Positions 23,688-40,468 of a DNA stretch of 64,000 bases are shown piece after piece; position 1 is the stretch's first letter; the number at the start of each line of letters is the position of its first letter. Source of the DNA: Rhizobiales bacterium SYSU XM002 (GTDB lineage: Bacteria; Pseudomonadota; Alphaproteobacteria; Rhizobiales; Beijerinckiaceae). The notes under the pieces were generated by a model. The model did not search any database. It worked only from the letters and a program-made list of their open reading frames with translations, and was not told the DNA's origin. The stretch is from assembly GCA_009846685.1 (NCBI GenBank), contig VWVY01000005.1, positions 186,001-250,000 on the forward strand, given 5' to 3'. The position numbers and the translations under genes were made by a program.

Positions 23688-23712
23688 ACATATTCAGGGT
23701 AAGGAATTTATG
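23688..23712 (-). promoter_or_regulatory. SqrR/BigR-type operator in the YeeE promoter
   Basis: On the minus strand the site reads CATAAATTC-N8-GAATATGT. Its core is ATTC (23692-23695) and GAAT (23704-23707) separated by 8 bases. Outside the spacer it matches the site at 40439-40463 at 16 of 17 positions. The centre is ~45 bases upstream of the YeeE start. If the FNR box at 23724 activates from -41.5, this operator covers about -18 to -3, where repression would be expected. Confidence 0.7.
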
Positions 23713-23723
23713 ATGATCCGCCC

Positions 23724-23737
23724 TTGATGAGCGTCAA
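23724..23737. promoter_or_regulatory. FNR/FixK-type box in the YeeE promoter
   Basis: TTGAT-GAGC-GTCAA matches TTGAT-N4-ATCAA at 9 of 10 positions. It lies just after the stop of the upstream L,D-transpeptidase and ~76 bases upstream of the YeeE start. A -41.5 position predicts transcription starting near 23689. Confidence 0.7.
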
Positions 23738-23743
23738 GTGCGA

Positions 23744-24181
23744 TTACGTGATGACGATCCTCGCCTTGCCGGGTCCGTGGTTCTTCACGAGGTTGTAGAG
23801 CGTGCGCGCGTGGCCCGTGGCGAGGCGGATGCAGCCATGCGAGGCTGGACGCCCGAGCGCCTTGACAGCGGTGGTGCCGTGGACCGCATAGCCGCCCTTG
23901 AAGAAGATCGAATAGGGCATTGGCGAGTTGTAGTATTTCTTCGAGAAATAGGTCTTGTGCATCCGCTTCGGCGCGTAGACCCCGCGCGGTGTCACGAAGC
24001 CCTTGCGCGCCGTGGAGACGCGCCAGACATGCGCGACTTCGCCGTCGACCTTGACGATCATCTGCTGCGCCTTGACGTCGATCCGCGCCTCGACGCGCGC
24101 TTGCGACGGGTTGATCTGGAGAAGCACGCCGAACACGACCATCAGGGCCGGCATCAGGCGACGAAGCAATACGGACATCAT
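23744..24181 (-). CDS. L,D-transpeptidase (YkuD domain), secreted
   Basis: The 145-residue protein begins MMSVLLRRLMPALMVVFGVL, a signal peptide ending at about SQA, and then has a YkuD catalytic domain. HGTTAVKALGRPASHGCIRL carries the catalytic S-H-G-C-I-R motif (nucleophile Cys ~117). Such enzymes make 3-3 crosslinks in peptidoglycan or attach proteins to it. AGGAGG lies ~5 bases before the start at 24181. It is divergent from mepA, another peptidoglycan gene. The open frame upstream of 24181 lacks a signal peptide and is rejected. Confidence 0.92.
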   Translation of the reverse strand: MMSVLLRRLMPALMVVFGVLLQINPSQARVEARIDVKAQQMIVKVDGEVAHVWRVSTARKGFVTPRGVYAPKRMHKTYFSKKYYNSPMPYSIFFKGGYAVHGTTAVKALGRPASHGCIRLATGHARTLYNLVKNHGPGKARIVIT

Positions 24182-24337
24182 GATCACCTCCTGTGGGTTC
24201 TTGTTGCGTCCCTTATGCGGCCGGCGCGCCCAGAAATTCCTGAAAACTTGGGGTGAACGAACCCTTGCCGCTTCTGGCTGGTTAACCTTTGACTGTGAGA
24301 TTACACTCAATTTTCCTGATTCCGAGGGGGAACCTCG

Positions 24338-25300
24338 ATGCCACGTCCGCTTGCCGCTTTTGTCGCGCCGATCGCGCTCGGTCTTGGACTGATCGTTGCG
24401 ACGGCACCGGCCGTCCGCGCCCAGCAGACGCAGAACGAGGAGGCGGAACGCCGCGCCAAGGTGCTCTCGCTCCTGCCCAACAATGCCGCGAAGCGCATCT
24501 TCGGCACGACCTCAGGGCCTGCCCGGATGGAGGCACGCGCCATCGGTTCATACGCGCGCGGATGCCTCGCCGGGGCGACCGCCCTCCCGGTCGATGGCGA
24601 AACCTGGCAGGTGATGCGCCTCTCGCGCAACCGCAATTGGGGTCACCCCGATCTGATCCGCCTCGTGGAGAGCATCGCGAAGCGTGCCCCGAAGGAAGCT
24701 GGCTGGCCCGGTCTTCTGGTCGGCGATATCTCCCAGCCGCGCGGCGGGCCCATGCTGACTGGCCACGCCTCACATCAGGTCGGGCTCGACGCGGACATCT
24801 GGCTGACACCGATGCCGGCGCGGACCTTGAGCCGCGAGGAGCGCGAGAACATGAGCGCGACCAACGTCGCCCGGTCCGACTGGATGGATGTCGATCCCGC
24901 CGTTTACACGAAGAAGCATCTCGCCCTGATTCGCCTTGCCGCACGCGAGAAGGCGGTGACGCGCATCTTCGTCAACCCAGCGATCAAGGTTGCGTTGTGC
25001 CGTGATGCCGGTGCCGACAGGGATTGGCTCTCTAAGGTGCGACCGATGTGGGGACATAACTACCATTTCCACATCCGTGTCGCCTGCCCGGCGGGTGACG
25101 CAACCTGCACCGACCAACCGCTCCCAGCCGATGAGGATGGATGCGGTAGCGAATTGCAGACCTGGCTCAAGAAGCAATACGCAGCGATGCATCGCCCGAA
25201 ACGGCAGGGAACCGGCAAGGGCAAGCCGAAGCCGCCGCCCCGGCCCTGGACGCTTGACGACTTGCCGGACGAATGCCGTTCGGTCGCGGTGGCGCGTTAA
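24338..25300 (+). CDS. mepA: Penicillin-insensitive murein endopeptidase
   Basis: The 320-residue protein has a signal peptide (MPRPLAAFVAPIALGLGLIV, cleaved near VRA). It then shows the MepA (M74) motifs GHASHQVGLDADIWL (Zn His and Asp ligands) and PMWGHNYHFHIRVACP (remaining His ligands). It cleaves D-Ala-meso-DAP crosslinks in the periplasm. GAGGGGG lies upstream of the ATG. Facing the L,D-transpeptidase gene across a 156-base divergent region, it suggests a small wall-remodelling locus. The C-terminal tail (GTGKGKPKPPPRPWTLDDLP) is a Pro/Lys extension. The stop overlaps the convergent aminotransferase stop by 4 bases. Confidence 0.92.
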   Translation: MPRPLAAFVAPIALGLGLIVATAPAVRAQQTQNEEAERRAKVLSLLPNNAAKRIFGTTSGPARMEARAIGSYARGCLAGATALPVDGETWQVMRLSRNRNWGHPDLIRLVESIAKRAPKEAGWPGLLVGDISQPRGGPMLTGHASHQVGLDADIWLTPMPARTLSREERENMSATNVARSDWMDVDPAVYTKKHLALIRLAAREKAVTRIFVNPAIKVALCRDAGADRDWLSKVRPMWGHNYHFHIRVACPAGDATCTDQPLPADEDGCGSELQTWLKKQYAAMHRPKRQGTGKGKPKPPPRPWTLDDLPDECRSVAVAR

Positions 25301-26454
25301 ATTTTCAGTTTGGCGAGGCTCTCAAGGGCGGCATCGAGCGTCGCCCGCTTCTTGGCAAAACACAGTCTGACAATCGTTTTCACCGGGTCAGACGCGTAAA
25401 ACGCGGAAACCGGAATGGCTGCGACACCGTGCTCCGCAACGAGCCGTTGGCAGAAGGCGACGTCGTCCGTCTCCCCAAGCGGTGCGATGTCGATGTTGAG
25501 GAAGTAGGTTCCCCGCGAATTCAGGACCGATAGCCCAAGCGCCGCTAGTCCATCCGCGAGATAGTCGCGCGCGGTCTGAAAATCGACGCGCATCGCGTCG
25601 AAGAACGCATCTTCCTTGCCGAGTCCGTAGGCGACGGCCGCCTGCAGGTTCGGCGGTGTCGTGAAGGTAAGGAACTGGTGCGCCTTGGCGAGAACGCGCA
25701 TCAGGCCAGGCGCCGCCATCACGAAACCGACCTTCCAGCCGGTGAGCGAGAAGATCTTGCCGGCGGAGGAAATCTTCACGGTCCGCTCGCGCATCCCCGG
25801 CAGCGCGATCAGCGGCTGGTGATGCGTTCCATCGAAAACGACATGCTCCCAGACCTCGTCGCACACCGCAATCGCGTCGTTGGCCATGCAGAAATGCGCG
25901 AGCATGGTCAGGTCCTCGACCGGGCACACGGTGCCGGCCGGGTTGAGTGGGTTGTTGAAGAGCACAAGCTTGGTGCGCGGCGAGAACGCTTCCATCAGAT
26001 CTTCGGCAGTGAAGCGCCAGTGCGGCGGCTTCAGCTTGACAAATTTCGGCACGCCGCCCGCGCGCAGAACCAGCGGGAGATAGGCGTCATACATCGGTTC
26101 GAACAAGACGACCTCGTCGCCCGGAACGATCAGCGCGAAGAGCGCACCGGCAATCGCCTCCGTCGCGCCGGAGGTGACCATGATCTCGCTGTCCGGATCG
26201 AGCGCCAGGTTCTGGTGGCGGGCGTAATGCGCGGCCACGGCCGTGCGCAGCTCCGGCAGGCCCATCATCGGCGGATATTGGTTCCAGCCCGTTACGACCG
26301 CCTCTGCCGCCTTCGCACGGATATCCTCTGCGCCGGGATCATCGGGAAAACCCTGTCCCAGATTGACGGCTTGGTGCTCGCGCGCGAGGCGCGACATGGT
26401 TTCGAAGATCGTCGTCGGCAGATTGGCGAAAACCGGATTGAAGGCGGTCGTCAT
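25297..26454 (-). CDS. Class I/II pyridoxal-phosphate aminotransferase
   Basis: The 385-residue protein has the fold-type I aminotransferase layout: VNLGQGFPDDP, GWNQYPPMMGLPELRTAVAA, SGATEAIAGALFALI, NNPLNPAG, then SSAGKIFSLTGWKVGF with the Schiff-base Lys. It resembles YbdL/kynurenine-oxoglutarate-type enzymes that act on methionine or aromatic amino acids; DapC is an alternative. The ATG at 26454 is chosen over a frame extending to 26610 because the latter runs through the divergent TetR promoter. The gene is divergent from the TetR gene. Confidence 0.87.
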   Translation of the reverse strand: MTTAFNPVFANLPTTIFETMSRLAREHQAVNLGQGFPDDPGAEDIRAKAAEAVVTGWNQYPPMMGLPELRTAVAAHYARHQNLALDPDSEIMVTSGATEAIAGALFALIVPGDEVVLFEPMYDAYLPLVLRAGGVPKFVKLKPPHWRFTAEDLMEAFSPRTKLVLFNNPLNPAGTVCPVEDLTMLAHFCMANDAIAVCDEVWEHVVFDGTHHQPLIALPGMRERTVKISSAGKIFSLTGWKVGFVMAAPGLMRVLAKAHQFLTFTTPPNLQAAVAYGLGKEDAFFDAMRVDFQTARDYLADGLAALGLSVLNSRGTYFLNIDIAPLGETDDVAFCQRLVAEHGVAAIPVSAFYASDPVKTIVRLCFAKKRATLDAALESLAKLKI

Positions 26455-26581
26455 CAACGGAGAACTCCAGGCGGAACGGTTGCGGGGGCGCCGCGTTGCG
26501 CCGGACCTTATCTGGTCGCCCGGGCTATTTCCAGCGATGCCAATGCTGACGGAATCTGACAGGGATGTTGACGTAACATAT

Positions 26582-26624
26582 GTGAAGTGATAAAAATCAA
26601 AAATCATCATTTATCAGATTTCAC
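26582..26624. promoter_or_regulatory. Long imperfect inverted repeat upstream of the TetR gene (candidate operator)
   Basis: GTGAA (26582-26586) and TGATAAA (26588-26594) are mirrored by TTTATCA (26610-26616) and TTCAC (26620-26624). This forms a 43-base dyad directly before the TetR start at 26644. TetR proteins usually bind such dyads to repress their own gene and the adjoining pump, so autoregulation is inferred. Confidence 0.55.
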
Positions 26625-26643
26625 GAATGTAGAGACAGGCTCG

Positions 26644-27240
26644 ATGAACGTCCGTCAGCGACTATCGCCCGAGGATATGCGCGACCGTATCGTCGCCGTG
26701 GCCGAGGAACATTTCCGCCGGATCGGGTATGCCAAGACCGCGGTTGCCGATATCGCCGCCGCGATGGGCATGTCCCCGGCAAACGTCTACCGTTTCTTCC
26801 CTTCGAAGAGCGCGATCAATAATGCGATCTGCGCCAAGCTGATGCTCGAGGTCGATCAGCTCATGGAGAGTATCGCCCGCGCTCCCGAGAGCGCAACGGA
26901 TCGGCTGAGAGCCTACTTCCTTGAGCTTCATCGCAACAACAAGGACAAGCTTACCCACGAGCATCGCATTCATGACATGGTCGAGGTGGCGATGGCCGAG
27001 AACTGGCCCGCCATCGAGTGTCATTGCAATTCGATGGTCAGTTTTCTTGCCCGCATCGTTGCTGACGGTGTCAGGACCGGCGAGTTCCGTGCTGTCGATC
27101 CCGAGGCCTTCGCGCAGACCGCGTTCGACGCGGCGGCGAAATTCCTCCATCCCACGCTCATTGCCCACAATGCCGACCGCGACCAGCTCGATCAGGTGAG
27201 CCGGATCACCGACCTGCTGCTCGCCGCGCTCCGGCCCTGA
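26644..27240 (+). CDS. TetR/AcrR-family repressor of the adjoining RND pump
   Basis: The 198-residue protein has an N-terminal TetR helix-turn-helix: RDRIVAVAEEHFRRIGYAKT, then VADIAAAMGMSPANVYRFFP with the F-P-S-K that ends the domain. The C-terminal ligand-binding part is helical and of the AcrR/YcdC type. The ATG at 26644 is chosen because the HTH begins ~10 residues later as usual; the 19 codons upstream overlap the operator dyad. It is followed after 22 bases by adaptor and pump genes on the same strand, which it most likely represses. Confidence 0.9.
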   Translation: MNVRQRLSPEDMRDRIVAVAEEHFRRIGYAKTAVADIAAAMGMSPANVYRFFPSKSAINNAICAKLMLEVDQLMESIARAPESATDRLRAYFLELHRNNKDKLTHEHRIHDMVEVAMAENWPAIECHCNSMVSFLARIVADGVRTGEFRAVDPEAFAQTAFDAAAKFLHPTLIAHNADRDQLDQVSRITDLLLAALRP

Positions 27241-27262
27241 AAATTCTCGCTCCGAGGTCACC

Positions 27263-28411
27263 ATGTCAAATGCCCGTATCGACGGATTTCTCAAAAAAGC
27301 GCGCGGCCGGACCGGCCTGATCGTGCTGGCGGCCACGCTCGGCCTCGCCGGGGCGGGTTGGGCCCTGGCCAGCAAGCCGAAGGAGGAGCCAGGAAAAACG
27401 GCCGCCGCCGATGTGCTCGCACGCCCGGTGCAGGTGGTTGCGGCGAAGTTCGAGCCGGCAAGTCAGCCGCGCGTGCTGGTCGGCACCCTGCGGGCGCGTG
27501 TCGAGAGCGATCGCAGCTTCCGCGTTGCGGGCAAGATCGCCAGCCGCCGCGTCGAGGCCGGCACCCGGGTCAAGGCCGGTGATGTCCTCGCTCGACTCGA
27601 CGAGACCGATCTGCGCCTTTCCCGCGAGGCGGCGGAAGCCGAACTGGCCGCCGCCCGCTCGTCCGAGCGGCAGGCGCGGCTCGACCGCGACCGGATCGGA
27701 GAGTTGCGTGCGAAGGGCTGGTCTACCGAGCAGGCCTTCGACCGGCAGAAGGCGGTTCTCGACGAGGCGACTGGCCGCGTCCAGCGTGCCGAACGGCAGG
27801 TGGAGCTCGCGCAGAATTCGCAGTCCTACACCGAACTCAAGGCCGAGGAAGATGGCACCGTCATCGCCGTGACAGCGGAGGCGGGTCAGGTGGTTGCTGC
27901 CGGGCAGCCGGTATTCCGCATCGCGCAGGACGGGGACCGCGAGGCGCTGGTCGCCATTCCGGAGCAGGACATGGCGCTCGCCCGCGAAGCCGCCGCCAAC
28001 GTGACCCTCTGGTCCGATCCGAGCCGGAGCTACCCGGCGAAATTGCGCGAACTTTCACCGAACGCCGATTCGGCAACGCGGACCTTTCTCGCCCGCTACA
28101 CGATTTCTGGCCTTGCTTCGGATGCCCCGCTCGGCATGACGGCGACGCTCGAACTCGCGCGCCGCGACGTCGCACCGGTGATGCGCCTGCCGCTCTCGGC
28201 CATTCTCAACCAGGGTTCGGGCGACGAGGTTTTCGTTCTCGACAGGGCGAGCGGCACGCTTGTGCGGAAGGCGGTCAAGGTGACCTCGTTCGACGCCGAG
28301 ACCGCTCTGGTCGCCGGCGGCCTCGCCGAAGGCGATCTGGTGGTGACGCTGGGCGTCCATACGCTACGCGAGGGCCTCAAGGCTCGCGCCGTTGCCCAAG
28401 CCAAGTCCTGA
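27263..28411 (+). CDS. RND efflux periplasmic adaptor (membrane fusion protein)
   Basis: The 382-residue protein has one N-terminal membrane anchor (GLIVLAATLGLAGAGWALAS). A barrel/lipoyl half (RSFRVAGKIASRRVEAGTRV), an alpha-helical hairpin (EAELAAARSSERQARLDRDR) and the second lipoyl half follow. The C-terminal beta-barrel contains SATRTFLARYTISG. It links the inner-membrane RND pump to an outer-membrane channel, which is not encoded here. It precedes the pump gene by 31 bases. Confidence 0.92.
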   Translation: MSNARIDGFLKKARGRTGLIVLAATLGLAGAGWALASKPKEEPGKTAAADVLARPVQVVAAKFEPASQPRVLVGTLRARVESDRSFRVAGKIASRRVEAGTRVKAGDVLARLDETDLRLSREAAEAELAAARSSERQARLDRDRIGELRAKGWSTEQAFDRQKAVLDEATGRVQRAERQVELAQNSQSYTELKAEEDGTVIAVTAEAGQVVAAGQPVFRIAQDGDREALVAIPEQDMALAREAAANVTLWSDPSRSYPAKLRELSPNADSATRTFLARYTISGLASDAPLGMTATLELARRDVAPVMRLPLSAILNQGSGDEVFVLDRASGTLVRKAVKVTSFDAETALVAGGLAEGDLVVTLGVHTLREGLKARAVAQAKS

Positions 28412-28442
28412 TCAAGCCAGAACCCGAGCGGGAGACATCGCC

Positions 28443-31400
28443 ATGCGCGGCATCAATCTTTCGGCCTGGGCTGTCCGGCACCAGACGCTCGTTCTGTTCC
28501 TCATTCTGGTGATCGGCGCGGCGGGAACGCTCTCCTACCTGCGGCTGGGCCGCGCGGAGGACCCGTCCTTCACCATCAAGGTCGGAGTCGTGACAGTGAT
28601 CTGGCCCGGCGCGACCGCGCTTGAGATGCAAAGTCAGGTCACGGATCGCATCGAGAAGAAGCTGCAGGAGCTTCCCTATTTCAACAAGGTTGTGACATAC
28701 GCCAAGCCCGGCTTCGCTGCACTGCAGATGGAGTTCAAGGACTATACGCCCGCGAAGCAGGTTCCCGAGCTCTTCTACCAGATGCGCAAGAAGCTTGGTG
28801 ACCTCAAACCCGAGCTTCCTTCCGGTGTCATCGGTCCCAACGTCAACGATGAGTTCGGCGACGTCGATTCGATTCTCACGATGATCACCGGCGATGGCGC
28901 GAGCTACGCCCGCCTCAAGGCCGTGGCGGAAGACCTCAAGCGCGCGATGCTGAAGGTGCCGAACGTCGTCAAGGTGAACATCTACGGCGCGCAGGACGAG
29001 AAAATTTATGTCGAGTTCAGCCACGCCAAGCTCGCAACGCTCGGTGTGTCCGCAAGCGCGATCTTCGACGCGATCGGCCGGCAGAACGCGATGGCGCCAG
29101 CGGGCACCTTCGAGACCAGTGCCCAGCGCATTCCGCTTCGCGTGACCGGCGCGCTGAACGGCGTCGATGCGGTCGCGGCGATCCCGGTCGAGGCGAACGG
29201 TCGCTCGATCCGTCTCGGCGACATTGCCGAGATCTCACACGGTTACGAAGATCCGAGCGATTTTCTTATCCGCCAGAACGGCAAGCCGGCGGTCGGTGTC
29301 GGCGTGGTAATGCAGAAGGGCGCGAATATCCTCACGCTCGGCGAGGATATCGACAAGGCAACCGCCATTTTCGAGGCTGGCCTGCCGCACGGGATCAACC
29401 TCGAACGCATCGCCAACCAGCCCAAGGTTGTCGAAGGGTCGGTCAAGGAGTTCGTGAAGGCCTTCGTCGAGGCGCTCGCCATCGTGCTCGCGGTGTCCTT
29501 CCTTTCGCTCGGCTGGCGTACAGGCATTGTGGTTACGCTCTCGGTGCCGCTAGTGCTGGCGATGGTCTTCACCATCATGGAGATCTGGGGCATCGATCTG
29601 CACCGCATCTCGCTCGGCGCGCTCATCATCGCGCTCGGCCTGCTGGTCGATGACGCGATCATCGCCGTCGAGATGATGATCGTGAAGATGGAGGAGGGAT
29701 GGGACCGGCTCAAAGCAGCCGCCTTTGCCTGGGATTCCACCGCCTTCCCGATGCTGACCGGCACGCTTGTCACCGCCGTCGGGTTCCTGCCGGTTGGTCT
29801 CGCCGCTTCGGGCGTCGGTGAATACACCGGTTCGCTCTTCATCGTCGTCGGGTTGGCGTTGATCGCCTCATGGTTCGTCGCGGTCGTGTTCACGCCCTAC
29901 CTCGGCGTGAAGCTGCTGCCGGCGATCAAGAAGCATGATTCCGCTCCCGGCGCCGAGGCGCAGGGCGGACATGGCCATGCCGACATGTATGACAAGGGCA
30001 TGTATGTCGGCCTGCGCCGCGTCGTCCAATGGTGCGTGCGGCACCGTGTGATCGTCATTCTCGTGACCGTCGGCGTGTTCGCAGCGTCGATCATGGCTTT
30101 CGGCCGCGTCGCGCAGCAGTTCTTCCCGCTGTCCGAACGGCCCGAGTTGTTCCTCGAAATGCGGCTGCCTGAGGGCTCCTCGATCACAGCAACTGACAAG
30201 GTAGCTGCGGAGGCCGAGGCGCTGCTCAAGGGCGACCCCGACGTCATCCACGCGACGAGCTATATCGGCCAGGGTTCGCCCCGTTTCTGGCTCGGCCTCA
30301 ATCAGGTCCTTCCCAACGAGGCCTTCGCGCAGATCGTGATCCTCTCGAAGGATGTCGAGGCGCGCGAGCGGATCAAGAATCGTCTCGAAAAGGCGTTGAA
30401 GGACGGTGCGCTCGCCGCCGCGCGTGTGCGCGTCGATCGCTTCAACTTCGGTCCGCCGGTGGGTTTTCCGGTCCAGTTCCGCGCGGTCGGCGCCGATCCT
30501 GCCGAGGTGCGCAAAATTGCCTATCAGGTGCGCGACGTGATGGAGAAGAACCGCAAGTCGGTCTCGCCCCATCTCGACTGGAACGAGATGATGCCCTCGA
30601 TCAAGCTGATCGTCGATCAGGATCGCGCCCGCGCCTTCGGGCTTGACCCCAGCGCCATCGCGCAGGTGCTTCAGACGCTTGTTTCCGGTGCGCCGGTGAC
30701 GGTGATCCGCGACGGCACCGAGCAGGTGCAGGTGGTGGCGCGTGCGGTGAAATCGGAGCGGCTCGACCCGGCCAAGCTCGCCGATTTCACCCTGACGGCA
30801 CGGAACGGCGTGCCGGTGCCGCTCGGGCAGGTTGCCCGCATCGCCTACGAGCACGAGGAGCCGATTCTCTGGCGCCGCAGCCGCGACATGTCGATCACCA
30901 TCCGCTCGGATATCATCGACGGGGTGCAGGCGCCCGATGTCACCAACGAGATCTGGAAGGCGCTTGCACCGCTGCGCGAGAATCTCCAGCCGGGTTATCG
31001 GCTTGAAATCGGCGGTGCGATCGAGGAATCGGCCAAGGCCAACGAATCGATCTTCAAGCTCTTCCCGTTGATGTTCATCCTGATGCTGACGTTGCTGATG
31101 ATCCAGCTCCAGAGCTTCTCGAAGCTGTTCCTCGTCTTCCTCACCGCGCCGCTCGGCATCATTGGCGCGTCGCTGGCGCTGAACCTTTCGGCGAAGCCAT
31201 TCGGTTTCGTGGCGCTGCTCGGGTTGATCGCACTCGCAGGCATGATCATGCGCAACACCGTCATCCTCGTCGACCAGATCGACCATGATCTCGACGCCGG
31301 CTTGCCGATGGGGGAGGCGATCGTCGAGGCGACGGTGCGCCGTGCGCGGCCGGTGGTGCTGACGGCGGCGGCGGCGATCCTCGCCATGATCCCGCTCTCG

Positions 31401-31631
31401 GGCTCCGCTTTCTGGGGGCCGATGGCCTTCACGATCATGGGCGGTCTCTTCGTCGCGACTTTCCTGACGCTGCTGTTCCTCCCGGCGCTCTATGCCTTCT
31501 GGTTCCGTGGCCGGATGAAGCGTGAGGCACGCGAAGCCGAGGCACAAGCACGGCTTGAAGCAGGCAACAGCAACGAGCCGCAAGGACTGCCTCCGACCCT
31601 GACCCCGGCTCTTCCGCGCGCGGCGGAGTGA
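28443..31631 (+). CDS. RND-family multidrug efflux permease
   Basis: The 1062-residue protein has the RND layout: helix 1 (HQTLVLFLILVIGAAGTLSY), a first porter domain, and the conserved LLVDDAIIAVEMM proton-relay region in helix 4. A second repeat has helices near LMFILMLTLLMIQL and IALAGMIMRNTVILVDQIDH. Length and order are those of AcrB-type (HAE) pumps. The ATG at 28443 follows GGGAGA; the frame from 28392 would overlap the adaptor gene and add a polar tail. Control by the adjacent TetR protein is likely. The substrate is unknown. Confidence 0.92.
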   Translation: MRGINLSAWAVRHQTLVLFLILVIGAAGTLSYLRLGRAEDPSFTIKVGVVTVIWPGATALEMQSQVTDRIEKKLQELPYFNKVVTYAKPGFAALQMEFKDYTPAKQVPELFYQMRKKLGDLKPELPSGVIGPNVNDEFGDVDSILTMITGDGASYARLKAVAEDLKRAMLKVPNVVKVNIYGAQDEKIYVEFSHAKLATLGVSASAIFDAIGRQNAMAPAGTFETSAQRIPLRVTGALNGVDAVAAIPVEANGRSIRLGDIAEISHGYEDPSDFLIRQNGKPAVGVGVVMQKGANILTLGEDIDKATAIFEAGLPHGINLERIANQPKVVEGSVKEFVKAFVEALAIVLAVSFLSLGWRTGIVVTLSVPLVLAMVFTIMEIWGIDLHRISLGALIIALGLLVDDAIIAVEMMIVKMEEGWDRLKAAAFAWDSTAFPMLTGTLVTAVGFLPVGLAASGVGEYTGSLFIVVGLALIASWFVAVVFTPYLGVKLLPAIKKHDSAPGAEAQGGHGHADMYDKGMYVGLRRVVQWCVRHRVIVILVTVGVFAASIMAFGRVAQQFFPLSERPELFLEMRLPEGSSITATDKVAAEAEALLKGDPDVIHATSYIGQGSPRFWLGLNQVLPNEAFAQIVILSKDVEARERIKNRLEKALKDGALAAARVRVDRFNFGPPVGFPVQFRAVGADPAEVRKIAYQVRDVMEKNRKSVSPHLDWNEMMPSIKLIVDQDRARAFGLDPSAIAQVLQTLVSGAPVTVIRDGTEQVQVVARAVKSERLDPAKLADFTLTARNGVPVPLGQVARIAYEHEEPILWRRSRDMSITIRSDIIDGVQAPDVTNEIWKALAPLRENLQPGYRLEIGGAIEESAKANESIFKLFPLMFILMLTLLMIQLQSFSKLFLVFLTAPLGIIGASLALNLSAKPFGFVALLGLIALAGMIMRNTVILVDQIDHDLDAGLPMGEAIVEATVRRARPVVLTAAAAILAMIPLSGSAFWGPMAFTIMGGLFVATFLTLLFLPALYAFWFRGRMKREAREAEAQARLEAGNSNEPQGLPPTLTPALPRAAE

Positions 31632-33403: not shown

Positions 33404-33876
33404 TGAGCGAGATCGGACCGCTCGACGGCATTGTCCGGGCCGATGCGGCCCGGTTGCTGGTGCGTGGTCTCATTCGGCACCTCCATCATCTCGATATGAC
33501 GGGTCTGTCGGAATTCATCCTGCCGAACGGACGGCGGGCCGACCTCGTCGCGCTCGGACGCAACGGTGAGATCTGGATCGTTGAAGTGAAATCCTCGATC
33601 GAGGATTTCCGGGCCGACAACAAATGGCAACATTACCGCCCGTTCTGCGATCGCTTCTTCTTTGCAAGCCACGTTGGGGTGCCGGAAGAAATCTTTCCGC
33701 CCGAGGCCGGTTTTATCCTTTGCGATGCCTTCGGTGCCGCGATGATCCGCGATAATGAGAAAATCGCGCTGGCTCCGGCGACCCGCAAGGCGATGATGAT
33801 CGAGATCGCGCGGCTCGCCGCTTTGCGGCTCAATGCACTCGTCAATCCCGAAAGCGGTCGCGGCCCGGAATATTGA
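33403..33876 (+). CDS. mmcB: MmcB-family DNA repair protein
   Basis: The 157-residue protein has the PD-(D/E)xK-like core of MmcB: FILPNGRRADLVALGRNGEI, then IVEVKSSIEDFRADNKWQHY with the E-V-K motif, and FFASHVGVPEEIFPPEAGFI. In Caulobacter the gene is needed for resistance to mitomycin C and belongs to the alphaproteobacterial DNA-damage response. The ATG at 33403 overlaps the GMC oxidoreductase stop; a TTG at 33394 is unlikely. No SOS box was identified with confidence. Confidence 0.88.
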   Translation: MSEIGPLDGIVRADAARLLVRGLIRHLHHLDMTGLSEFILPNGRRADLVALGRNGEIWIVEVKSSIEDFRADNKWQHYRPFCDRFFFASHVGVPEEIFPPEAGFILCDAFGAAMIRDNEKIALAPATRKAMMIEIARLAALRLNALVNPESGRGPEY

Positions 33877-33924
33877 TCGGGACGACCTTAGCCATGCCAC
33901 GGTCATTGTGCGCAAACGCACTTG

Positions 33925-33944
33925 CATCGTCGCGTGCGGCGATG
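33925..33944 (+). terminator. Hairpin after mmcB
   Basis: CATCGTCGC (33925-33933) pairs with GCGGCGATG (33936-33944), with one T-G pair and a 2-base nominal loop. TCTATTTGTGG follows. It lies ~50 bases past the mmcB stop; a weaker GTGCG/CGCAC hairpin (33908-33921) precedes it. The T-run is poor, so this is a tentative terminator. Confidence 0.35.
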
Positions 33945-34027
33945 TCTATTTGTGGCGTTTTTCGGGCTGGTCAGGTTTCACCCTCACGGGAAGGAGAGTA
34001 GCCGACCGCCTTTCAGGGGAGTTGCCT

Positions 34028-34696
34028 ATGTTCATTTCCTTTGGTCGGATCGGGCTGGCCGCGTTTACTGCGGCGGCGGGTATTGCCCTCGGCGCCTCGG
34101 CGGCATCGTCTGCGGAAATCGCCAAGCTGCGCATTGGCAACTGGCAGGGCGGTGCGTTTTCGAACGATCAGAACGGAACCTTCTCGCATTGTGCGGCCAG
34201 CGCCCGTTACAATAGTGGGATCACGCTGGTTTTTTCGATCTCGAGTGATCGCGTCTGGAGTATGGGATTCTCGAGCTCGACCTGGAACCTTAACCGCGGC
34301 TCCAGCTATCCCGTGCGCTATTGGGTCGATGACGGCGAGGTGCTGAACGGTACGGCTCTGGCCAAGACCGACAAGCTGGCACAGGTCTTCCTGCCGGCGA
34401 ATTCATCGCTTTTCGGTGCTTTCCGCTATGGAAAGGTGCTGCGTGTTGCAACCGCAGAGAAGACTCTCGTCTTCCGTCTTACCGATACCTCCGAGCTGCT
34501 CAATGCCCTGCTGCAATGCTCGCGTGACTACGGAAATTATCGCGCAGGAGGTGGCAATCCGTTCGGCAGCGGGAACTCGGGCGGTTCGACGAACCCGTTT
34601 GGGGGCGGTTCGGCGCCTGCCCCGTCCAACCCGTTCGGCGGCGGCAACGCGCCGCGCCCGGCACCGGCCGACAAGAAGTCGGGCGAGACGATCTGA
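34028..34696 (+). CDS. Secreted protein of unknown function with C-terminal NPFG repeats
   Basis: The 222-residue protein has a signal peptide (MFISFGRIGLAAFTAAAGIA, cleaved around ASS-AE). A ~140-residue soluble domain (IGNWQGGAFSNDQNGTFSHC ... FSISSDRVWSMGFSSSTWNL) follows. It has two Cys, one near FSHCAASARY and one in LLQCSRDYGNY, that could pair. The last ~50 residues are a low-complexity Gly/Asn/Pro tail with repeated NPFG (NPFGSGNSGG, NPFGGGSAPA, NPFGGGNAPR). I do not recognise the family. The ATG at 34028 places the signal peptide at the N-terminus. It is monocistronic, with a terminator after it. Confidence 0.75.
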   Translation: MFISFGRIGLAAFTAAAGIALGASAASSAEIAKLRIGNWQGGAFSNDQNGTFSHCAASARYNSGITLVFSISSDRVWSMGFSSSTWNLNRGSSYPVRYWVDDGEVLNGTALAKTDKLAQVFLPANSSLFGAFRYGKVLRVATAEKTLVFRLTDTSELLNALLQCSRDYGNYRAGGGNPFGSGNSGGSTNPFGGGSAPAPSNPFGGGNAPRPAPADKKSGETI

Positions 34697-34718
34697 ACGG
34701 GCCGCATCGCAATCTGGT

Positions 34719-34747
34719 AAACGGCGGGAGAAAATCCTGCCGTTTTT
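34719..34747 (+). terminator. Rho-independent terminator after the NPFG-repeat gene
   Basis: AAACGGCGGGA (34719-34729) pairs with TCCTGCCGTTT (34735-34745), with one G-T pair around a GAAAA loop, then TT. It lies 23 bases past the stop codon. Confidence 0.85.
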
Positions 34748-34915
34748 GCTAGTTTCAGGATAATTTTCTCAAATTGACCGAGTTTCCGGCGGCGAATTTC
34801 TTCTCTGGAGAGTTATGGATGCCGTAGGGCGTTGACAAGCGCCCGAAGTAGCAATCTGATGGCGCAAGAGCGGCCAACAAGGGTCGTTTTCCTCGCGTTT
34901 TGGGAGCGCCAAACC

Positions 34916-36529
34916 ATGTCTCTTACGATCACCAAACGCCGCGCGATGACGCTTGCGGCAGCCATGTTCGCGACTACCTCCTTCGTGGCTCTCATGCCGG
35001 CAAGCGCCGCGACGCCGAAGGATACGGTCGTCATGGCAAAACAGATCGACGACATCATCTCGCTTGATCCGGCCGAGGTGTTCGAGTTCTCGGGTGGTGA
35101 AGCCGTCGGCAATATCTACGACCGCCTTGTTGCTTTCGACCTCAAGGACTCCTCGAAGCTCTACGGCTCGATGGCGTCGGGCTGGACGATCTCGGATGAC
35201 GGCAAGACCTATACCTTCAAACTCAAGCCGGGCCTGAAGTTCCATTCCGGCAACGCGGTCACCGCGGCGGATGTGGTCTATTCGTTCGAGCGCGCCGTCA
35301 AGCTCAACAAGTCTCCAGGGTTCATTCTCACCCAGTTCGGCTTCTCGAAGGATAACGTTCTCGAGAAGGTGAAAGCGGTGGACGACCTCACGGTCACCAT
35401 GACGGTGGACAAGCCCTATGCCCCCTCGTTCTTCCTGAACTGTCTGACGGCGGACGTTGCCTCGGTCGTTGATTCCAAGACCGTGAAGGCAAATGAGAAG
35501 AACGGTGACTTCGGCAACGAGTGGCTCAAGCGTAACTCCGCCGGTTCGGGAGCCTACATCCTGCGCGGCTGGCGCGCGAATGAGCAATATGCTCTCGAAG
35601 CCAATGCAGGCTGGATGAACGGCGCCCCGAAGATGAAGCGCATCATTGTCCGCCACGTTGCCGAGCCGGCTTCCCAGCGTCTGCTGCTCGAGAAGGGTGA
35701 TGTCGACTACGCCCGCAACCTCACCAAGGACCAGCTCGCGGCTGTAGGCAGCATTGCCGACGTCGCGATCCAGAAGGGCAACAAGGGCTATATCCTCTAC
35801 CTCGGTCTCAACACCAAGAATCCCAACTTCGCCAAGCCGGAAGTGCGCGAGGCGATGAAGTGGCTTGTCGACTACGACGCGATCGAGAAGAACATCGTCG
35901 CCGGCACTTACGAGCCACACCAGAGCTTCCTGCCGAAGGGCTTCCTCGGCGCGATCTCGGACAAGCCCTACAAGTATGACGTCGACAAGGCTAAGGCGCT
36001 GCTCGAGAAGGCCGGCCTGAAGGACGGTTTCTCCGTCACGATGGACGTGCGCTCGACCGCGCCGATCACTGACATTGCGCAGGCCATCCAGGCGCAATGG
36101 GGCAAGGCTGGAATCAAGCTTGAACTGATCCCCGGCGACGGCAAGGCGACGCTCACAAAGTATCGTGCACGCCAGCACGATATCTATATCGGCCAGTGGG
36201 GCCCGGACTATCTCGACCCGCACACAAATGCCGAGACCTTCGCCATCAACGAGGATAACAAGGACGACGCGCGCTCCAAGACGCTCGCCTGGCGCAACGC
36301 CTGGGATATTCCGGACATGACCAAGCGTACGCTCGCCAACGTGCTCGAGCGCGACACTGCGAAGCGCCAGAAGGTTTACGAGGACCTGCAGCGCGAGCAC
36401 CAGAAGGATTCGCCCTTCGTCATCATGTTCCAGCAGATCGAGGTTGCCGCACACCGCAAGGACGTCGGGGGCTTCCAGATCGGGCCGGGTTCGTCGACCA
36501 ACCTCTATTACGCCATCGAGAAGAAGTGA
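34916..36529 (+). CDS. Peptide/nickel-type ABC transporter substrate-binding protein (family 5)
   Basis: The 537-residue protein has a signal peptide (ending near PASA-A) and then the SBP_bac_5 fold. MAKQIDDIISLDPAEVFEFS is the N-terminal strand pattern, IYDRLVAFDLKDSSKLYGSM follows, and GLKFHSGNAVTAADVVYSFE is the family signature. It captures di/oligopeptides or similar ligands in the periplasm. The ATG at 34916 puts a KRR-containing signal sequence at the N-terminus. It heads a complete importer operon with two permeases and two ATPases to 40121. A large hairpin separates it from the first permease gene. Confidence 0.9.
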   Translation: MSLTITKRRAMTLAAAMFATTSFVALMPASAATPKDTVVMAKQIDDIISLDPAEVFEFSGGEAVGNIYDRLVAFDLKDSSKLYGSMASGWTISDDGKTYTFKLKPGLKFHSGNAVTAADVVYSFERAVKLNKSPGFILTQFGFSKDNVLEKVKAVDDLTVTMTVDKPYAPSFFLNCLTADVASVVDSKTVKANEKNGDFGNEWLKRNSAGSGAYILRGWRANEQYALEANAGWMNGAPKMKRIIVRHVAEPASQRLLLEKGDVDYARNLTKDQLAAVGSIADVAIQKGNKGYILYLGLNTKNPNFAKPEVREAMKWLVDYDAIEKNIVAGTYEPHQSFLPKGFLGAISDKPYKYDVDKAKALLEKAGLKDGFSVTMDVRSTAPITDIAQAIQAQWGKAGIKLELIPGDGKATLTKYRARQHDIYIGQWGPDYLDPHTNAETFAINEDNKDDARSKTLAWRNAWDIPDMTKRTLANVLERDTAKRQKVYEDLQREHQKDSPFVIMFQQIEVAAHRKDVGGFQIGPGSSTNLYYAIEKK

Positions 36530-36543
36530 TCTTCACGGCCATC

Positions 36544-36579
36544 GACGCCCGGCGCGATCCTTGCATTGCGCCGGGCGTC
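36544..36579 (+). terminator. Intercistronic hairpin between binding-protein and permease genes
   Basis: GACGCCCGGCGC (36544-36555) and GCGCCGGGCGTC (36568-36579) form a perfect 12-base stem with a 12-base loop, followed by CCTTGTTG. There is no clean T-tract, so partial termination or 3'-end protection of the binding-protein mRNA is more likely than full termination. That would give more binding protein than membrane parts. Confidence 0.65.
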
Positions 36580-36604
36580 CCTTGTTGACGGATTGGTTTG
36601 ACGC

Positions 36605-37633
36605 ATGATGGCTTCCAGCTGGGCACGCGCGGCCCGGATGACCTTGCGGGAACTGGTGACGATCTTCGTCACTATTCTCGGCCTGCTCGCTGTGACGTTC
36701 CTGATCGCGCGCGTGATGCCGGTCGATCCTGTGCTCGCCGTGGTGGGAGACAATGCCCGACCGGACGTTTACGAGAAGGCACGGCAGGAACTGGGGCTCG
36801 ACAAGCCCTTGATCGTCCAGTTCTGGATTTATCTGACCAAGGTCGCGCAGGGCGATTTCGGCAAGTCTATCCTGACCTCCAATCCGGTTGTGGCCGACAT
36901 CAAGCGTGTTTTCCCGGCGACACTTGAATTGGCGACGCTCGGTACGCTGATCGGTATTTGCCTCGGTATCCCGCTCGGCGTGCTGGCGGCGACGAAGCAG
37001 GGGCGCTGGCCCGACCAGATCGCCCGGTTTGTCGGCCTCTTTGGCTATTCGATCCCCGTTTTCTGGCTCGGGTTGATGGGACTGCTTCTATTCTACGCCA
37101 AGCTCGGCTGGGTTTCAGGGCCGGGGCGGATCGACGTTTCCTATCAGGATTTCGTCCAACCCATCACCGGCGTCCTGCTGCTCGATTGCGCGTTGCAGGG
37201 GGAGTGGGATGCCTTCCGCAATGCCGTCTCGCATCTCGTGCTGCCTTCCGCGGTTCTCGGCCTGTTCTCGACGGCCTATATCAGCCGGATGACTCGCTCG
37301 TTCATGATCAACGAGCTGCAGCAGCATTATGTCATCACCGCGCGCGTGAAGGGACTTTCCGAAGGCCGCGTCGTCTGGGGCCACGCCCTGCGCAACGCGG
37401 TCGTGCCGCTGCTCACGGTGATCGCACTCTCCTATGCCAACCTGCTCGAAGGCTCGGTACTCACCGAGACGGTATTCGCGTGGCCGGGGCTCGGCCGTTA
37501 CATCACCAATTCGCTGCTCAATGCCGATATGAACGCGGTGCTTGGCGGCACCGTCGTCGTGGGACTCGTTTTCGTGGGCATCAACCTCCTGTCCGACGTC
37601 CTGGCGCGGATTTTCGATCCGAGGGCGAGGTGA
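36605..37633 (+). CDS. Peptide-type ABC transporter permease (DppB-like)
   Basis: The 342-residue membrane protein has about six helices and the BPD_transp_1 EAA-like loop (RVKGLSEGRVVWGHALRNAV). A family-typical C-terminus (VFAWPGLGRYITNSLLNADM) and an N-terminal helix TLRELVTIFVTILGLLAVTF complete the DppB/OppB pattern. It pairs with the next gene to form the pore. It starts 25 bases after the intercistronic hairpin. Confidence 0.9.
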   Translation: MMASSWARAARMTLRELVTIFVTILGLLAVTFLIARVMPVDPVLAVVGDNARPDVYEKARQELGLDKPLIVQFWIYLTKVAQGDFGKSILTSNPVVADIKRVFPATLELATLGTLIGICLGIPLGVLAATKQGRWPDQIARFVGLFGYSIPVFWLGLMGLLLFYAKLGWVSGPGRIDVSYQDFVQPITGVLLLDCALQGEWDAFRNAVSHLVLPSAVLGLFSTAYISRMTRSFMINELQQHYVITARVKGLSEGRVVWGHALRNAVVPLLTVIALSYANLLEGSVLTETVFAWPGLGRYITNSLLNADMNAVLGGTVVVGLVFVGINLLSDVLARIFDPRAR

Positions 37634-37634
37634 G

Positions 37635-38525
37635 ATGAGCACGCTGCGCGAATACCTCACCTCCGAACGCCCCGCCTCGCGCCAGCAGGCGCGCTGGGGA
37701 CAATACTACCGGCAGTGGCGAGCGCTGAAGCAGAACCCGCTGGCACTGCTCGGTCTCGTCATCATCATCGCCTTGCTGATCGTTGCGGCCGTCGCGCCCT
37801 GGATTTCCCCCTATGATCCGATCGCGCAGAACCTTTCCCAACGCCTGCTGCCACCCTCGGCCGCCCACTGGATGGGGACGGACGAGCTTGGCCGCGATAT
37901 CCTTAGTCGAGTCATCTATGGAACCCGGCTCACCTTGGCGGTCGTACTGCTGGTGGTGATCTCGGTCGGCCCGGTCGGGCTGCTGATCGGCACGCTTTCG
38001 GGTTATTTCGGCGGCGTGGTCGATACCGTGCTGATGCGCGTGACCGATATTTTCCTCGCCTTCCCTCGTCTTGTGCTGGCGCTGGCGTTCGTCGCCGCGC
38101 TTGGTCCTGGCATCGAGAACGCCGTGATCGCCATCGCCTGCACCGCCTGGCCGCCCTATGCCCGCGTCGCGCGCGCGGAGACGCTGGTGATCCGCAACGC
38201 CGACTACATCGCCGCCGTGCGGCTTCAGGGGGCTTCTCACCTCAGGATCGTGCTGCGCCACGTCGTGCCGATGTGCCTGCCTTCGGTCATCGTCCGGACG
38301 ACGCTCGACATGGCCGGAATCATCCTGATCGCTGCCGGTCTCGGCTTCCTCGGCCTCGGCGCGCAGCCGCCCTCGCCGGAATGGGGCGCGATGATCGCCA
38401 AGGGTCGCGAGTATATCTTCGATCAATGGTGGGTCGCGGCCTTTCCCGGTCTCGCGATCTGCCTCGTCGCGCTCGGCTTCAACCTGTTCGGTGACGGTCT
38501 GAGGGATGTTCTCGATGCCCGATAA
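37635..38525 (+). CDS. Peptide-type ABC transporter permease (DppC-like)
   Basis: The 296-residue protein has a cytoplasmic N-terminus (RQWRALKQNPLALLGLVIII, the OppC-N helix) and then PISPYDPIAQ-like periplasmic sequence. HWMGTDELGRDILSRVIYGT is a DppC/OppC signature, and the EAA loop VRLQGASHLRIVLRHVVPMC follows. The ATG at 37635 begins 2 bases after the DppB-like stop. The C-terminus overlaps the first ATPase gene by 11 bases. Confidence 0.9.
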   Translation: MSTLREYLTSERPASRQQARWGQYYRQWRALKQNPLALLGLVIIIALLIVAAVAPWISPYDPIAQNLSQRLLPPSAAHWMGTDELGRDILSRVIYGTRLTLAVVLLVVISVGPVGLLIGTLSGYFGGVVDTVLMRVTDIFLAFPRLVLALAFVAALGPGIENAVIAIACTAWPPYARVARAETLVIRNADYIAAVRLQGASHLRIVLRHVVPMCLPSVIVRTTLDMAGIILIAAGLGFLGLGAQPPSPEWGAMIAKGREYIFDQWWVAAFPGLAICLVALGFNLFGDGLRDVLDAR

Positions 38526-39360
38526 CGCGCCGCTGATCGAGGTCGAGAACCTCCGGGTCAACTTTCATACGCCGACGCGCCTTGTGCGCGCCGTGCGCGG
38601 CCTTTCCTTCACGCTCGGCCGGGAGAAGCTGGCGATCGTCGGCGAGTCCGGTTCCGGCAAATCCATGACTGGTCGCGCGATCCTCGATCTCGTGCCCTGG
38701 CCCGGCGAGGTTCTGGCCGATCGGCTGGCCTATCGCGGCAAGGACATGCGCGCGATGAGTTCGTCCGAGCGTCGCGGCCTTCGCGGCAAGCATATCTCGA
38801 TGGTGATGCAGGATCCGAAATATTCGCTCAATCCTGTCATGACGGTCGGCGACCAGATCGCCGAGGCCTATCGCCTTCACAGCAAGGCGAATGCCCGCGA
38901 GGCGCGCGAACGATCGATTGCCATGCTTGAAGCTGTTCAGATCCGCGAGCCCGGTCGCGTCTACGATCTCTACCCGCACGAGGTCTCCGGGGGCATGGGT
39001 CAGCGCGTGATGATCGCGATGATGCTGATCGGCGAGCCGGACGTGCTGATCGCGGACGAGCCCACCTCGGCGCTCGACGTGACGGTGCAGACGCAGATCC
39101 TCGACATTCTCGAGCGCCTTGTTACCGAGCGGGGCATGGGCCTCATTTTCATCAGCCACGATCTGCCGCTGGTCTCGGCTTTCTGCGACCGGGTGATCGT
39201 GATGTATGGCGGCAAGGTGATGGAAACGCTCGACGCGCGCGAATTGCGCCAGGGCAAGCACCCGTACACCCAAGGCCTGCTCGGGTGTCTGCCCGATCTC
39301 GACCACCCCAAGGATCGCCTCGCGACGCTCAACCGCGATCCCGCCTGGATGGGGGATTGA
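38515..39360 (+). CDS. Peptide-type ABC transporter ATPase (DppD-like)
   Basis: The 281-residue protein has Walker A (GESGSGKSMTG, ~38-48), a Q-loop (MVMQDPKYSLNP), the LSGG-type signature in variant form (EVSGGMGQRVMIAMML), Walker B plus catalytic Glu (VLIADEPTSALD) and the switch His (ISHDLPLVSAF). The C-terminal ~40 residues match the oligopeptide-ATPase tail (HPYTQGLLGCLPDL). The ATG at 38515 with GAGGG at 38501-38505 is preferred over the ATG at 38506. It powers import with the partner downstream. Confidence 0.9.
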   Translation: MPDNAPLIEVENLRVNFHTPTRLVRAVRGLSFTLGREKLAIVGESGSGKSMTGRAILDLVPWPGEVLADRLAYRGKDMRAMSSSERRGLRGKHISMVMQDPKYSLNPVMTVGDQIAEAYRLHSKANAREARERSIAMLEAVQIREPGRVYDLYPHEVSGGMGQRVMIAMMLIGEPDVLIADEPTSALDVTVQTQILDILERLVTERGMGLIFISHDLPLVSAFCDRVIVMYGGKVMETLDARELRQGKHPYTQGLLGCLPDLDHPKDRLATLNRDPAWMGD

Positions 39361-39362
39361 TC

Positions 39363-40121
39363 ATGGCCACTCCCGCGATCGAGGTCGAAAACCTCAATGT
39401 CCGCTTCGGCGAGGCGCATGTCCTGAAGGATGTGAGCTTTTCTGTTGCACCCGGCGAAAGCTACGGACTTGTCGGCGAATCCGGTTCCGGCAAATCGACC
39501 GTCCTGCGTGTGCTCTCGGCGCTCAATCCCAACTGGTCCGGGCGGGTTGCCTTCTCCGGCGAAGCGCATCGGGCGCGCCCCGACGAGGCCTTTTTTCGTC
39601 AGGTGCAGATGGTGTTCCAGGATCCGTTCGGGAGCCTCCACCCGCGCATGACCATAGACGCCGCGCTCGCCGAGCCGCTGGCGATCCACGGCCTCGACCG
39701 GCCGGATGAGCGCATCGCCGCCGCGCTCAAGGGCGTCGGCCTCGACGAGGGGTTCCGGTTCCGCTATCCGCACCAACTTTCCGGCGGGCAGCGTCAGCGT
39801 GTCGCCATCGCCCGTGCGCTGATCCTTGAGCCCCGCATCCTGCTTCTCGACGAACCGACTTCGGCACTCGATGTGTCGATTCAGGCCGAGGTGCTGAACC
39901 TTCTGCAGGACATCAAGAAACAACGCGACCTGACGATGGTGCTCGTGAGCCACAACCTTGCGGTGGTCGGCCACATGTGCGCCCGCGTGGCAGTGATGAA
40001 CCGCGGGATTATCGTTGAGGAAGCGAGCATCGACGATCTACGCCGCACCGGCGGGCAAGACCCCTATACGCAGGAGCTTCTGGCCGCCTCACGCCATGTC
40101 GCCATTCCTGGTGCCGCCTAG
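39363..40121 (+). CDS. Peptide-type ABC transporter ATPase (DppF-like)
   Basis: The 252-residue protein has Walker A (GESGSGKSTVLRVLS), MVFQDPFGSLHPR, the signature LSGGQRQRVAIAR, and Walker B with Glu (ILLLDEPTSALD). The His switch is VSHNLAVVGHM, and PYTQELLAASR is the C-terminal oligopeptide-ATPase motif. It starts 2 bases after the DppD-like stop and ends the operon. Its stop overlaps the convergent SqrR/BigR-type gene by 4 bases. Confidence 0.9.
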   Translation: MATPAIEVENLNVRFGEAHVLKDVSFSVAPGESYGLVGESGSGKSTVLRVLSALNPNWSGRVAFSGEAHRARPDEAFFRQVQMVFQDPFGSLHPRMTIDAALAEPLAIHGLDRPDERIAAALKGVGLDEGFRFRYPHQLSGGQRQRVAIARALILEPRILLLDEPTSALDVSIQAEVLNLLQDIKKQRDLTMVLVSHNLAVVGHMCARVAVMNRGIIVEEASIDDLRRTGGQDPYTQELLAASRHVAIPGAA

Positions 40122-40441
40122 GGTGCCGGACAGAAGCTCGCCTGCAGCTCTCTGAGAATGCGCAGGACGATCGGGTTCGCGACCGAATAGAGCACTTTCT
40201 GGCCCTCACGCCGGGTTTCCACGAGCCGTTCGGCCCGGAGGAGCGCGAGTTGCTGGCTTGCCGCAGGCTCGCGGATTCCGACTTGCCGCGCGATCTCGCC
40301 GGACGGCAACTCTCCTTGCACAAGCGCGCAGAGAATCCTCAGGCGCGCGCCATGCCCCATCGCCCGCAGCAGGCGCGCGGCGTCTTCCGAAGCCGAGGCC
40401 AGTGCATCAAGGTGATCGGCGGATGGATTTAATACTTGCAT
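40118..40441 (-). CDS. ArsR-family dithiol persulfide sensor/repressor (SqrR/BigR/YgaV type)
   Basis: The 107-residue protein has the winged-helix ArsR core: RLLRAMGHGARLRILCALVQ, then IREPAASQQLALLRAERLVE as recognition helix and wing. It has exactly two cysteines, Cys38 and Cys104, 66 residues apart. This equals the spacing (from memory) of the sensor cysteines of SqrR (41/107) and BigR (42/108), which form a tetrasulfide bridge on persulfide exposure. Metal-sensing ArsR cysteine clusters are absent. The ATG at 40441 lies inside its own operator, consistent with autorepression. It is divergent from a DUF2892 protein and RND pump. Confidence 0.87.
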   Translation of the reverse strand: MQVLNPSADHLDALASASEDAARLLRAMGHGARLRILCALVQGELPSGEIARQVGIREPAASQQLALLRAERLVETRREGQKVLYSVANPIVLRILRELQASFCPAP

Positions 40442-40464
40442 AAATTCGCAATAACGAATATATC
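40436..40464 (+). promoter_or_regulatory. Candidate promoter of the DUF2892-RND operon
   Basis: TTGCAT (40436-40441) and TATATC (40459-40464) are 17 bases apart. The SqrR/BigR-type operator lies in the spacer and -10, so binding would block RNA polymerase. A start near 40471 gives a leader of ~58 bases. Confidence 0.4.
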
Positions 40465-40468
40465 GAAT
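40439..40468. promoter_or_regulatory. SqrR/BigR-type operator in the divergent regulator/pump promoter
   Basis: CATAAATTC-N8-GAATATAT (40439-40463) has the palindrome ATTCG-CAATAA-CGAAT (40444-40459) at its core. A further CGAAT half-site lies at 40464-40468. ATTC-N8-GAAT is the kind of palindrome I recall for SqrR; that recollection was not checked. The same extended sequence occurs in the YeeE promoter at 23688-23712. Confidence 0.75.

Follow-up and report, generated by a model that had tools for sequence, protein, structure and literature searches.

We identified two copies of one operator-like sequence in a 64,000-nucleotide stretch of the genome of Rhizobiales bacterium SYSU XM002 (contig VWVY01000005.1, positions 186,001 to 250,000; this whole stretch is referred to as the window). 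One copy lies between the gene for an ArsR-family repressor and a divergent operon for an RND pump, and the other is in the promoter of yeeE1 (yeeE), which encodes a sulfur transporter. It is fairly probable that both are operators of SqrR/BigR-class repressors and that pump, regulator and transporter are induced jointly; we infer binding, repression, the ligand, the promoter positions and the joint induction from the sequence. The central features are as follows.

40439-40463, plus strand: operator copy 1, CATAAATTC-N8-GAATATAT (full sequence CATAAATTCGCAATAACGAATATAT), from the pattern scan of genome and window
23688-23712, minus strand: operator copy 2, CATAAATTC-N8-GAATATGT (full sequence CATAAATTCCTTACCCTGAATATGT), 33 nucleotides (nt) from the yeeE start codon
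40118..40441, minus strand: ArsR-family dithiol regulator of the SqrR/BigR class, 107 amino acids, Cys38 and Cys104 (translation, PF01022, alignments)
22524..23654, minus strand: YeeE/YedE-family sulfur transporter YeeE1, 376 amino acids (PF04143, E 1.3e-52)

Both operator sequences have the coordinates and strands given in the initial annotation, which had read them as two copies of one operator. With the spacer excluded they share 16 of 17 bases, and reading the sequence shows that the ATTC/GAAT core of each is a palindrome. A scan of the whole genome (3,457,224 bases in 15 contigs) for CATAAATTC-N8-GAATATNT returned two exact matches, which are these two sites, and none for the reversed control. 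Thus, the many randomly placed copies that the initial annotation had named as a sign against a regulon did not appear; the two copies found are both at genes of the expected kinds. Allowing up to three mismatches gave 11 strand-matches genome-wide (control 1). Two are the sites themselves, one arises because the palindromic regulator site overlaps itself, and the remaining eight all have three mismatches. Apart from the two sites, no place in 3.46 Mb is within two mismatches of the pattern. None of 100 shuffles of the window gave three matches at up to three mismatches. Among 8000 simulated 150-nt intergenic-like stretches the best agreement with the regulator site was 14 of its 17 positions (reached once), compared with 16 for the YeeE site. 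Scored at 16 positions against the genus consensus described below, the YeeE operator reaches 14 and ranks first of the 33 promoters in the window; in 20000 simulated stretches of the same kind a score of at least 13 occurred in 2 and a score of 14 in none. The null for these promoter scores consists of the window's 33 promoters (50-nt gap) and the simulation; a comparison with 363 distinct promoters was not used as a null because some of those loci had been fetched for a pattern match.

The regulator has an ArsR-type winged helix (PF01022, 41 bits against a cut-off of 22), and its only cysteines are at positions 38 and 104. Both align with cysteines of 13ct, 6o8k and 3pqj. Of these entries, 3pqj is labelled as a biofilm growth-associated repressor and the 6o8 entries as ArsR family; the 13ct and 6o8k structures we take to be SqrR of R. 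capsulatus. The cysteine pair is kept in all eight aligned regulators. Because the score for the BigR equivalog NF040642 of NCBIfam is 70.8 bits, below the cut-off of 155, we name the protein as SqrR/BigR-class and not as a BigR orthologue. The earlier designation as a SqrR/BigR-type repressor therefore holds for the class, given the winged helix and the cysteine pair, and does not extend to BigR in the narrow sense. A third ArsR paralogue is encoded on contig C8 of the same genome (L082 9122-9457); it is 36% identical to the regulator and, by eye, has cysteines at both places. The regulator gene is divergent from three genes, and putative promoters were placed by eye between them.

40529..40732, plus strand: YgaP-like transmembrane protein (DUF2892), 67 amino acids (PF11127)
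40743..41708, plus strand: RND periplasmic adaptor (TIGR01730, above cut-off)
41705..44935, plus strand: RND transporter permease (PF00873)
40476-40471 (TTGACT) and 40453-40448 (TATTGC), minus strand: putative regulator promoter
40436-40441 (TTGCAT) and 40459-40464 (TATATC), plus strand: putative pump promoter

Copy 1 overlaps the regulator ATG (40439-40441), and ATTC-N8-GAAT occupies 40444-40459 in the regulator's own promoter. By our reading, with hexamers chosen by eye from the promoters of seven congeners, copy 1 would cover parts of both divergent promoters. The promoter positions are predictions, because a sigma-70 consensus scan found no promoter in 40380-40560 and, at yeeE, a single weak candidate (TTGACG-16-CATCAT). 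On our placement of the promoters, the regulator mRNA would be almost without a leader. All six other regulator-bearing congeners share the divergent layout to the extent that it is visible: it is complete in G005, G006, G008 and G009, the small gene is uncalled in G011, and the G016 contig ends in the adaptor.

We compared the sites across a genus sample of 17 genomes, which includes the genome of the window. A simple codon-usage script supplied the calls for genes that belong to none of the named families, and the BLUF, protease, cytochrome c, dxs, pirin and sox-type labels were given by eye. With up to two mismatches allowed, the pattern derived from the window matched at 16 sites across the 17 genomes (reversed control 1). 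The 14 sites outside the window's genome are the independent test, and 7 of them are at sulfur-type promoters: two at regulator/pump promoters (G006, G008), one at a pair of pmpAB-like genes (G016) and four in the divergent promoter between CMD and rhodanese genes (G005, G007, G010, G016). The rhodanese of G007 carries a YgaP-like membrane domain. When a refined palindrome, ACATATTC-N8-GAATATGT, was searched for with up to two mismatches allowed, the 17 genomes yielded 12 sites (control 1). Of these, 11 are in promoters of sulfur-type genes, a result that is partly circular because some of the recovered sites had served to refine the palindrome. The 11 are the CMD-rhodanese promoter in six genomes, pmpAB-like genes in three, yeeE1 of the window and the pump operon of G015 (L267); the twelfth is inside a response-regulator-like gene of G005. 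At a threshold of 12 of 16 a site is present in 7 of 8 CMD loci, and the eighth (G009) has no called rhodanese beside it. The genus comparison supports the interpretation of the site as an operator.

Pump operons were also examined across the order, where 140 of 397 genomes gave a match, 30 of them with loci. A site scoring at least 12 is present within 700 nt upstream in 7 of these 30 pump loci (the window's own included), compared with 2 of 300 simulated stretches; the remaining 23 have nothing at this level. Four of the seven are outside the genus, in pump operons from another family of the order (L176, L177, L178 and L182); they have TGATATTC-N8-GAATATAT upstream, and no regulator gene was found in their fetched flanks. 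A set of 80 loci contained mostly SoxR-like genes, many beside SoxT, and was of little use for the operator of this regulator. Two operator-like sequences were noted. In G006 (L209 1501-1525), CATACATTC-N8-GAATATGA overlaps the beginning of a short cytochrome c-like gene. At 16881-16904 of the window, ACAGATTT-N8-GAAAATGT (13 of 16, lacking the ATTC/GAAT core) precedes a gene for an IrrE/ScfR-type regulator.

YeeE1 scores 179.8 bits against PF04143 (gathering score 27) and is below the NCBIfam cut-offs for TsuA (99.2 against 400 and 86.3 against 645). Its promoter contains a second element, with the form TTGA-N6-TCAA, that the initial annotation had missed.

23724..23737, minus strand: FixK/FNR-type box TTGACGCTCATCAA, 11 bp upstream of the operator, with the two centres 31 bp apart

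The gene adjoins a lepA-like gene, a neighbourhood conserved in 8 of 8 genomes. TTGAY-N4-RTCAA is exact in all eight lepA-linked yeeE1 promoters, where it starts 79-106 nt before the matched start, and TTGA-N6-TCAAGG is invariant in their alignment. The exact box occurs three times in the window (0.2 expected); the other two (48686-48699 and 48800-48813) lie between two divergent units, a CRP/FNR-family gene (47939-48637, with no cysteine in its translation) and a nar-type cluster (MFS transporter and nitrate reductase alpha subunit). The window and loci L075-L090 (several of which had been fetched for their yeeE1) together provide 281 upstream regions; only 7 of these have the exact box, namely five of yeeE1 and those of the CRP/FNR–nar divergent pair. 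Across the order, 21 of 22 YeeE1-like loci had enough upstream sequence; the box is exact in 11 of the 21 and has one mismatch in four more. Outside the genus the figures are 3 of 12 exact and 4 of 12 with one mismatch, and for other genes in those loci 2 of 50 and 4 of 50. Judged by the spacing, the operator would lie at about the position of the -10 region of a class II activated promoter. Because its promoter carries a conserved FixK/FNR-type box, yeeE1 is not simply a sulfur-regulon gene. The box is conserved and, among these promoters, the operator is present in the window's genome only; therefore, the yeeE promoter probably has two inputs, one of FixK/FNR type and one from sulfur.

We propose the following mechanism. 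In its reduced form the regulator would bind at 40439-40463, where it would cover the start of its own gene together with the divergent pump promoter, and at 23688-23712 before yeeE, over the -10 region of a promoter driven from the FixK/FNR-type box. Sulfane sulfur would link C38 and C104 and release the repressor, after which the pump operon, the regulator and the transporter would rise together. At yeeE, the sulfur signal would be superimposed on a conserved input of low-oxygen or nitrogen-oxide type. The yeeE site may also be shared by a SoxR-like paralogue.

Several observations weigh against this interpretation. The bare core ATTC-N8-GAAT occurs twice in the window, where 1.05 are expected and 25 of 100 shuffles reach two, and at 34 places in the genome, which is chance level; of the 32 other places, the 15 inspected match the genus consensus at 8-11 of 16 positions. 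The core was consequently rejected as a definition of the regulon, and the information is therefore carried by the extended form. The CAT among the shared bases of copy 1 is also the regulator start codon, and TATNT may have a double role as part of a -10 element. The other 7 of the 14 congener sites have no evident sulfur link: one is coding, one is between BLUF-like and protease-like genes, one is at a cytochrome c gene, two are in G002, and G013 and G015 have one in common. There are also sites that score 12-13 and have no evident meaning, some of them inside genes: in the window, 13 is reached within a gene at 2626 and upstream of an unrelated gene at 16881, and two coding sites in L080 and L082 reach 12. 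In the regulator promoters of the other six regulator-bearing congeners the exact core is found only in G006, the corresponding position lacks the second GAAT half (by eye) and the best sites score 11-13. A yeeE1 operator conserved in the genus was rejected, as none of the seven other lepA-linked orthologues reaches 12 of 16, and this weakens the proposal of the initial annotation; their promoters score 7-9, and three of these congeners (G005, G011, G016) have the regulator. Finally, the regulator was not found at E 1e-20 in five genomes that bear operators, G002, G003, G007, G010 (78% complete) and G015.

This last observation bears on which protein reads the sites. A SoxR-like paralogue on contig C3 of the window's genome is 38% identical to the regulator and adjoins a SoxT-like gene, with sox-type neighbours named by eye. 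The yeeE operator could be real and be read by, or mainly by, this protein instead of the regulator at 40118-40441. SoxR-like paralogues of one score group are present in 17 of 17 genomes of the genus (sox context was seen in a few), compared with 7 of 17 for the regulator (E <=1e-20). Upstream of the SoxR-like gene, ACATATTC-N8-CTATAT occurs in 8 of 17 copies, including that of the window's genome, so that a half-site is shared.

L081 10096-10119, contig C3: SoxR-like operon promoter TAATATAG-N8-GAATATGT, the same variant in 8 of 17 SoxR-like copies

The genomes without a found regulator keep operators at the CMD-rhodanese promoter (G002, G003, G007, G010) and at the pump operon (G015, where no regulator gene was called beside it). 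In H. denitrificans, according to one report, SoxR and sHdrR bind the same soxT1A–sHdrR gene region (PMC10451225). Against this alternative, the yeeE site is closest to the regulator's own site and has a complete GAAT half, in place of which the SoxR-like operon site reads CTAT, and the regulator gene adjoins the only other full copy in the genome. We regard exclusive or main reading by the SoxR-like protein as unlikely, yet as a serious alternative. The operators in genomes without a found regulator and the half-sites in SoxR-like promoters indicate that repressors of this class probably overlap in specificity. Control of yeeE by the window's regulator is the likeliest reading, and the sequence does not separate it from SoxR-like control or from control by both. 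The initial annotation had assigned to this regulator both yeeE and the regulator's own operon. The regulator class, the SqrR form of the operator and the two genomic copies at the expected genes agree with that proposal, and the choice between the regulator and the SoxR-like paralogue at yeeE is the part that did not stand as given.

In another reading YeeE1 is in practice a target of the FixK/FNR family only, with a sulfur operator that binds its repressor and hardly affects expression. The invariance of the box in eight of eight orthologues, among which the operator is private to the window's genome, is consistent with this, but the predicted operator position would cover the core promoter, and pmpAB-like genes carry the operator in 5 of the 8 congeners that have them, so the coupling of the YeeE family to this switch is recurrent; we consider the reading very improbable. 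That the yeeE match is a chance likeness of AT-rich promoter parts (-10, spacer) is most unlikely, given the simulated scores, the top rank among the 33 promoters and the lack of any other genomic place within two mismatches, despite the chance-level core, the non-conservation in orthologous promoters and the possible -10 sequence within the match.

Which YeeE-family gene carries the site differs across the genus. The window also encodes a pair of half-size YeeE proteins (the YeeE2 pair); that several congeners have the operator at this pair was likewise missed by the initial annotation.

19472-19990, plus strand: pmpA-like half-size YeeE protein (PF04143 profile positions 172-309)
20001-20621, plus strand: pmpB-like half-size YeeE protein (PF04143 profile positions 1-154)
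19403..19426, plus strand: degenerate operator-like site before the pmpA-like gene, 11 of 16, left half lost and right half GAATAT kept

The degenerate site ranks fourth of the 33 window promoters, and the simulated chance of a score of at least 11 is about 0.014 per promoter. Operators scoring at least 12 of 16 precede the pmpAB-like genes of G001, G002, G005, G015 and G016 (12-15), and the other three of the eight loci, the window included, score 11. In G008 a YeeE gene is directly 3' of the pump gene and is preceded by a related element (12 of 16). In G011, yeeE1 and the regulator are present, yeeE1 is without the operator, and a search at E 1e-30 found no pmpA-like gene. A tentative reading, which we hold to be possible though somewhat doubtful as a whole, is that YeeE-family import has repeatedly been wired to the sulfane-sulfur switch via different genes: the pmpAB-like pair in most genomes, the post-pump YeeE in G008 and the lepA-linked YeeE1 in the window's lineage, where the operator would have been laid over a conserved FixK/FNR-type promoter and that of pmpAB would have decayed to a single half-site. 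BigR-like and SoxR-like proteins would be interchangeable readers, and the yeeE1 promoter would be active only when sulfane sulfur coincides with low oxygen (or nitrogen oxides). The direction of change between YeeE genes is likewise tentative.

The analysis predicts a compact sulfane-sulfur regulon, with ACATATTC-N8-GAATATGT as the defined operator, for a genus placed near Alsobacter (Hyphomicrobiales), and extends it to a transporter that is unlinked to the regulator gene. It suggests that the operator can move between YeeE-family genes. If true, joint control of YeeE by FixK/FNR-type and sulfur inputs would link anaerobic or nitrogen-oxide respiration with reactive-sulfur sensing in one promoter; the nar-type cluster of the window has the same kind of box as yeeE1.

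The operator, the regulator class and the YeeE targets are each of a known kind. SqrR of R. capsulatus and YgaV of E. coli are likewise ArsR-family dithiol repressors, and the core of the window operator is their site: the deduced RcSqrR site is ATTC-N8-GAAT, which is also in the ygaV promoter, and the ygaVP operon is a target of this type of regulator (PMC9774250). R. capsulatus also has a sulfide-controlled rhodanese (PMC9995734). Unlike in these systems, the neighbouring operon in the window encodes a DUF2892 protein, an adaptor and an RND pump, and the extended flanks CATA and ATNT come from this analysis and not from the SqrR/YgaV work. YeeE/YedE-type genes are targets of BigR in A. baumannii, where yeeE-yedE-pdo2 form one operon (PMC7315123), whereas yeeE of the window is 17 kb away and has its own promoter. 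A term search of a BigR paper (PMC5823870) gave no operator passage. Elsewhere, such regulators likewise have RND pump genes and YeeE-type transporter genes beside them (PMC12423496, section 2.1), and PmpA and PmpB are described as YeeE halves (PMC11582611).

Judged mostly from the listings of searches in an open-access library, there is no evident report of a YeeE gene under a FixK/FNR-type box (in the passages of PMC9068703 examined, yeeE appears only in an expression table), nor of YeeE under such a box together with a SqrR-class operator. The FixK2 consensus TTGA/C-N6-T/GCAA (PMC6710368) is matched by the yeeE1 box itself and by both boxes in the CRP/FNR–nar divergent promoter. H. denitrificans provides a further parallel, with two related sulfane-sulfur repressors (SoxR and sHdrR), a shared target region and adjoining YeeE-like importers, SoxT1A and SoxT1B (PMC10451225, PMC11582611, PMC12423496). 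The window regulator differs in that it sits with a pump operon and not with sox or shdr genes. In H. denitrificans, loss of sHdrR or SoxR lowers the transcripts for nitrate respiration (PMC12423496).

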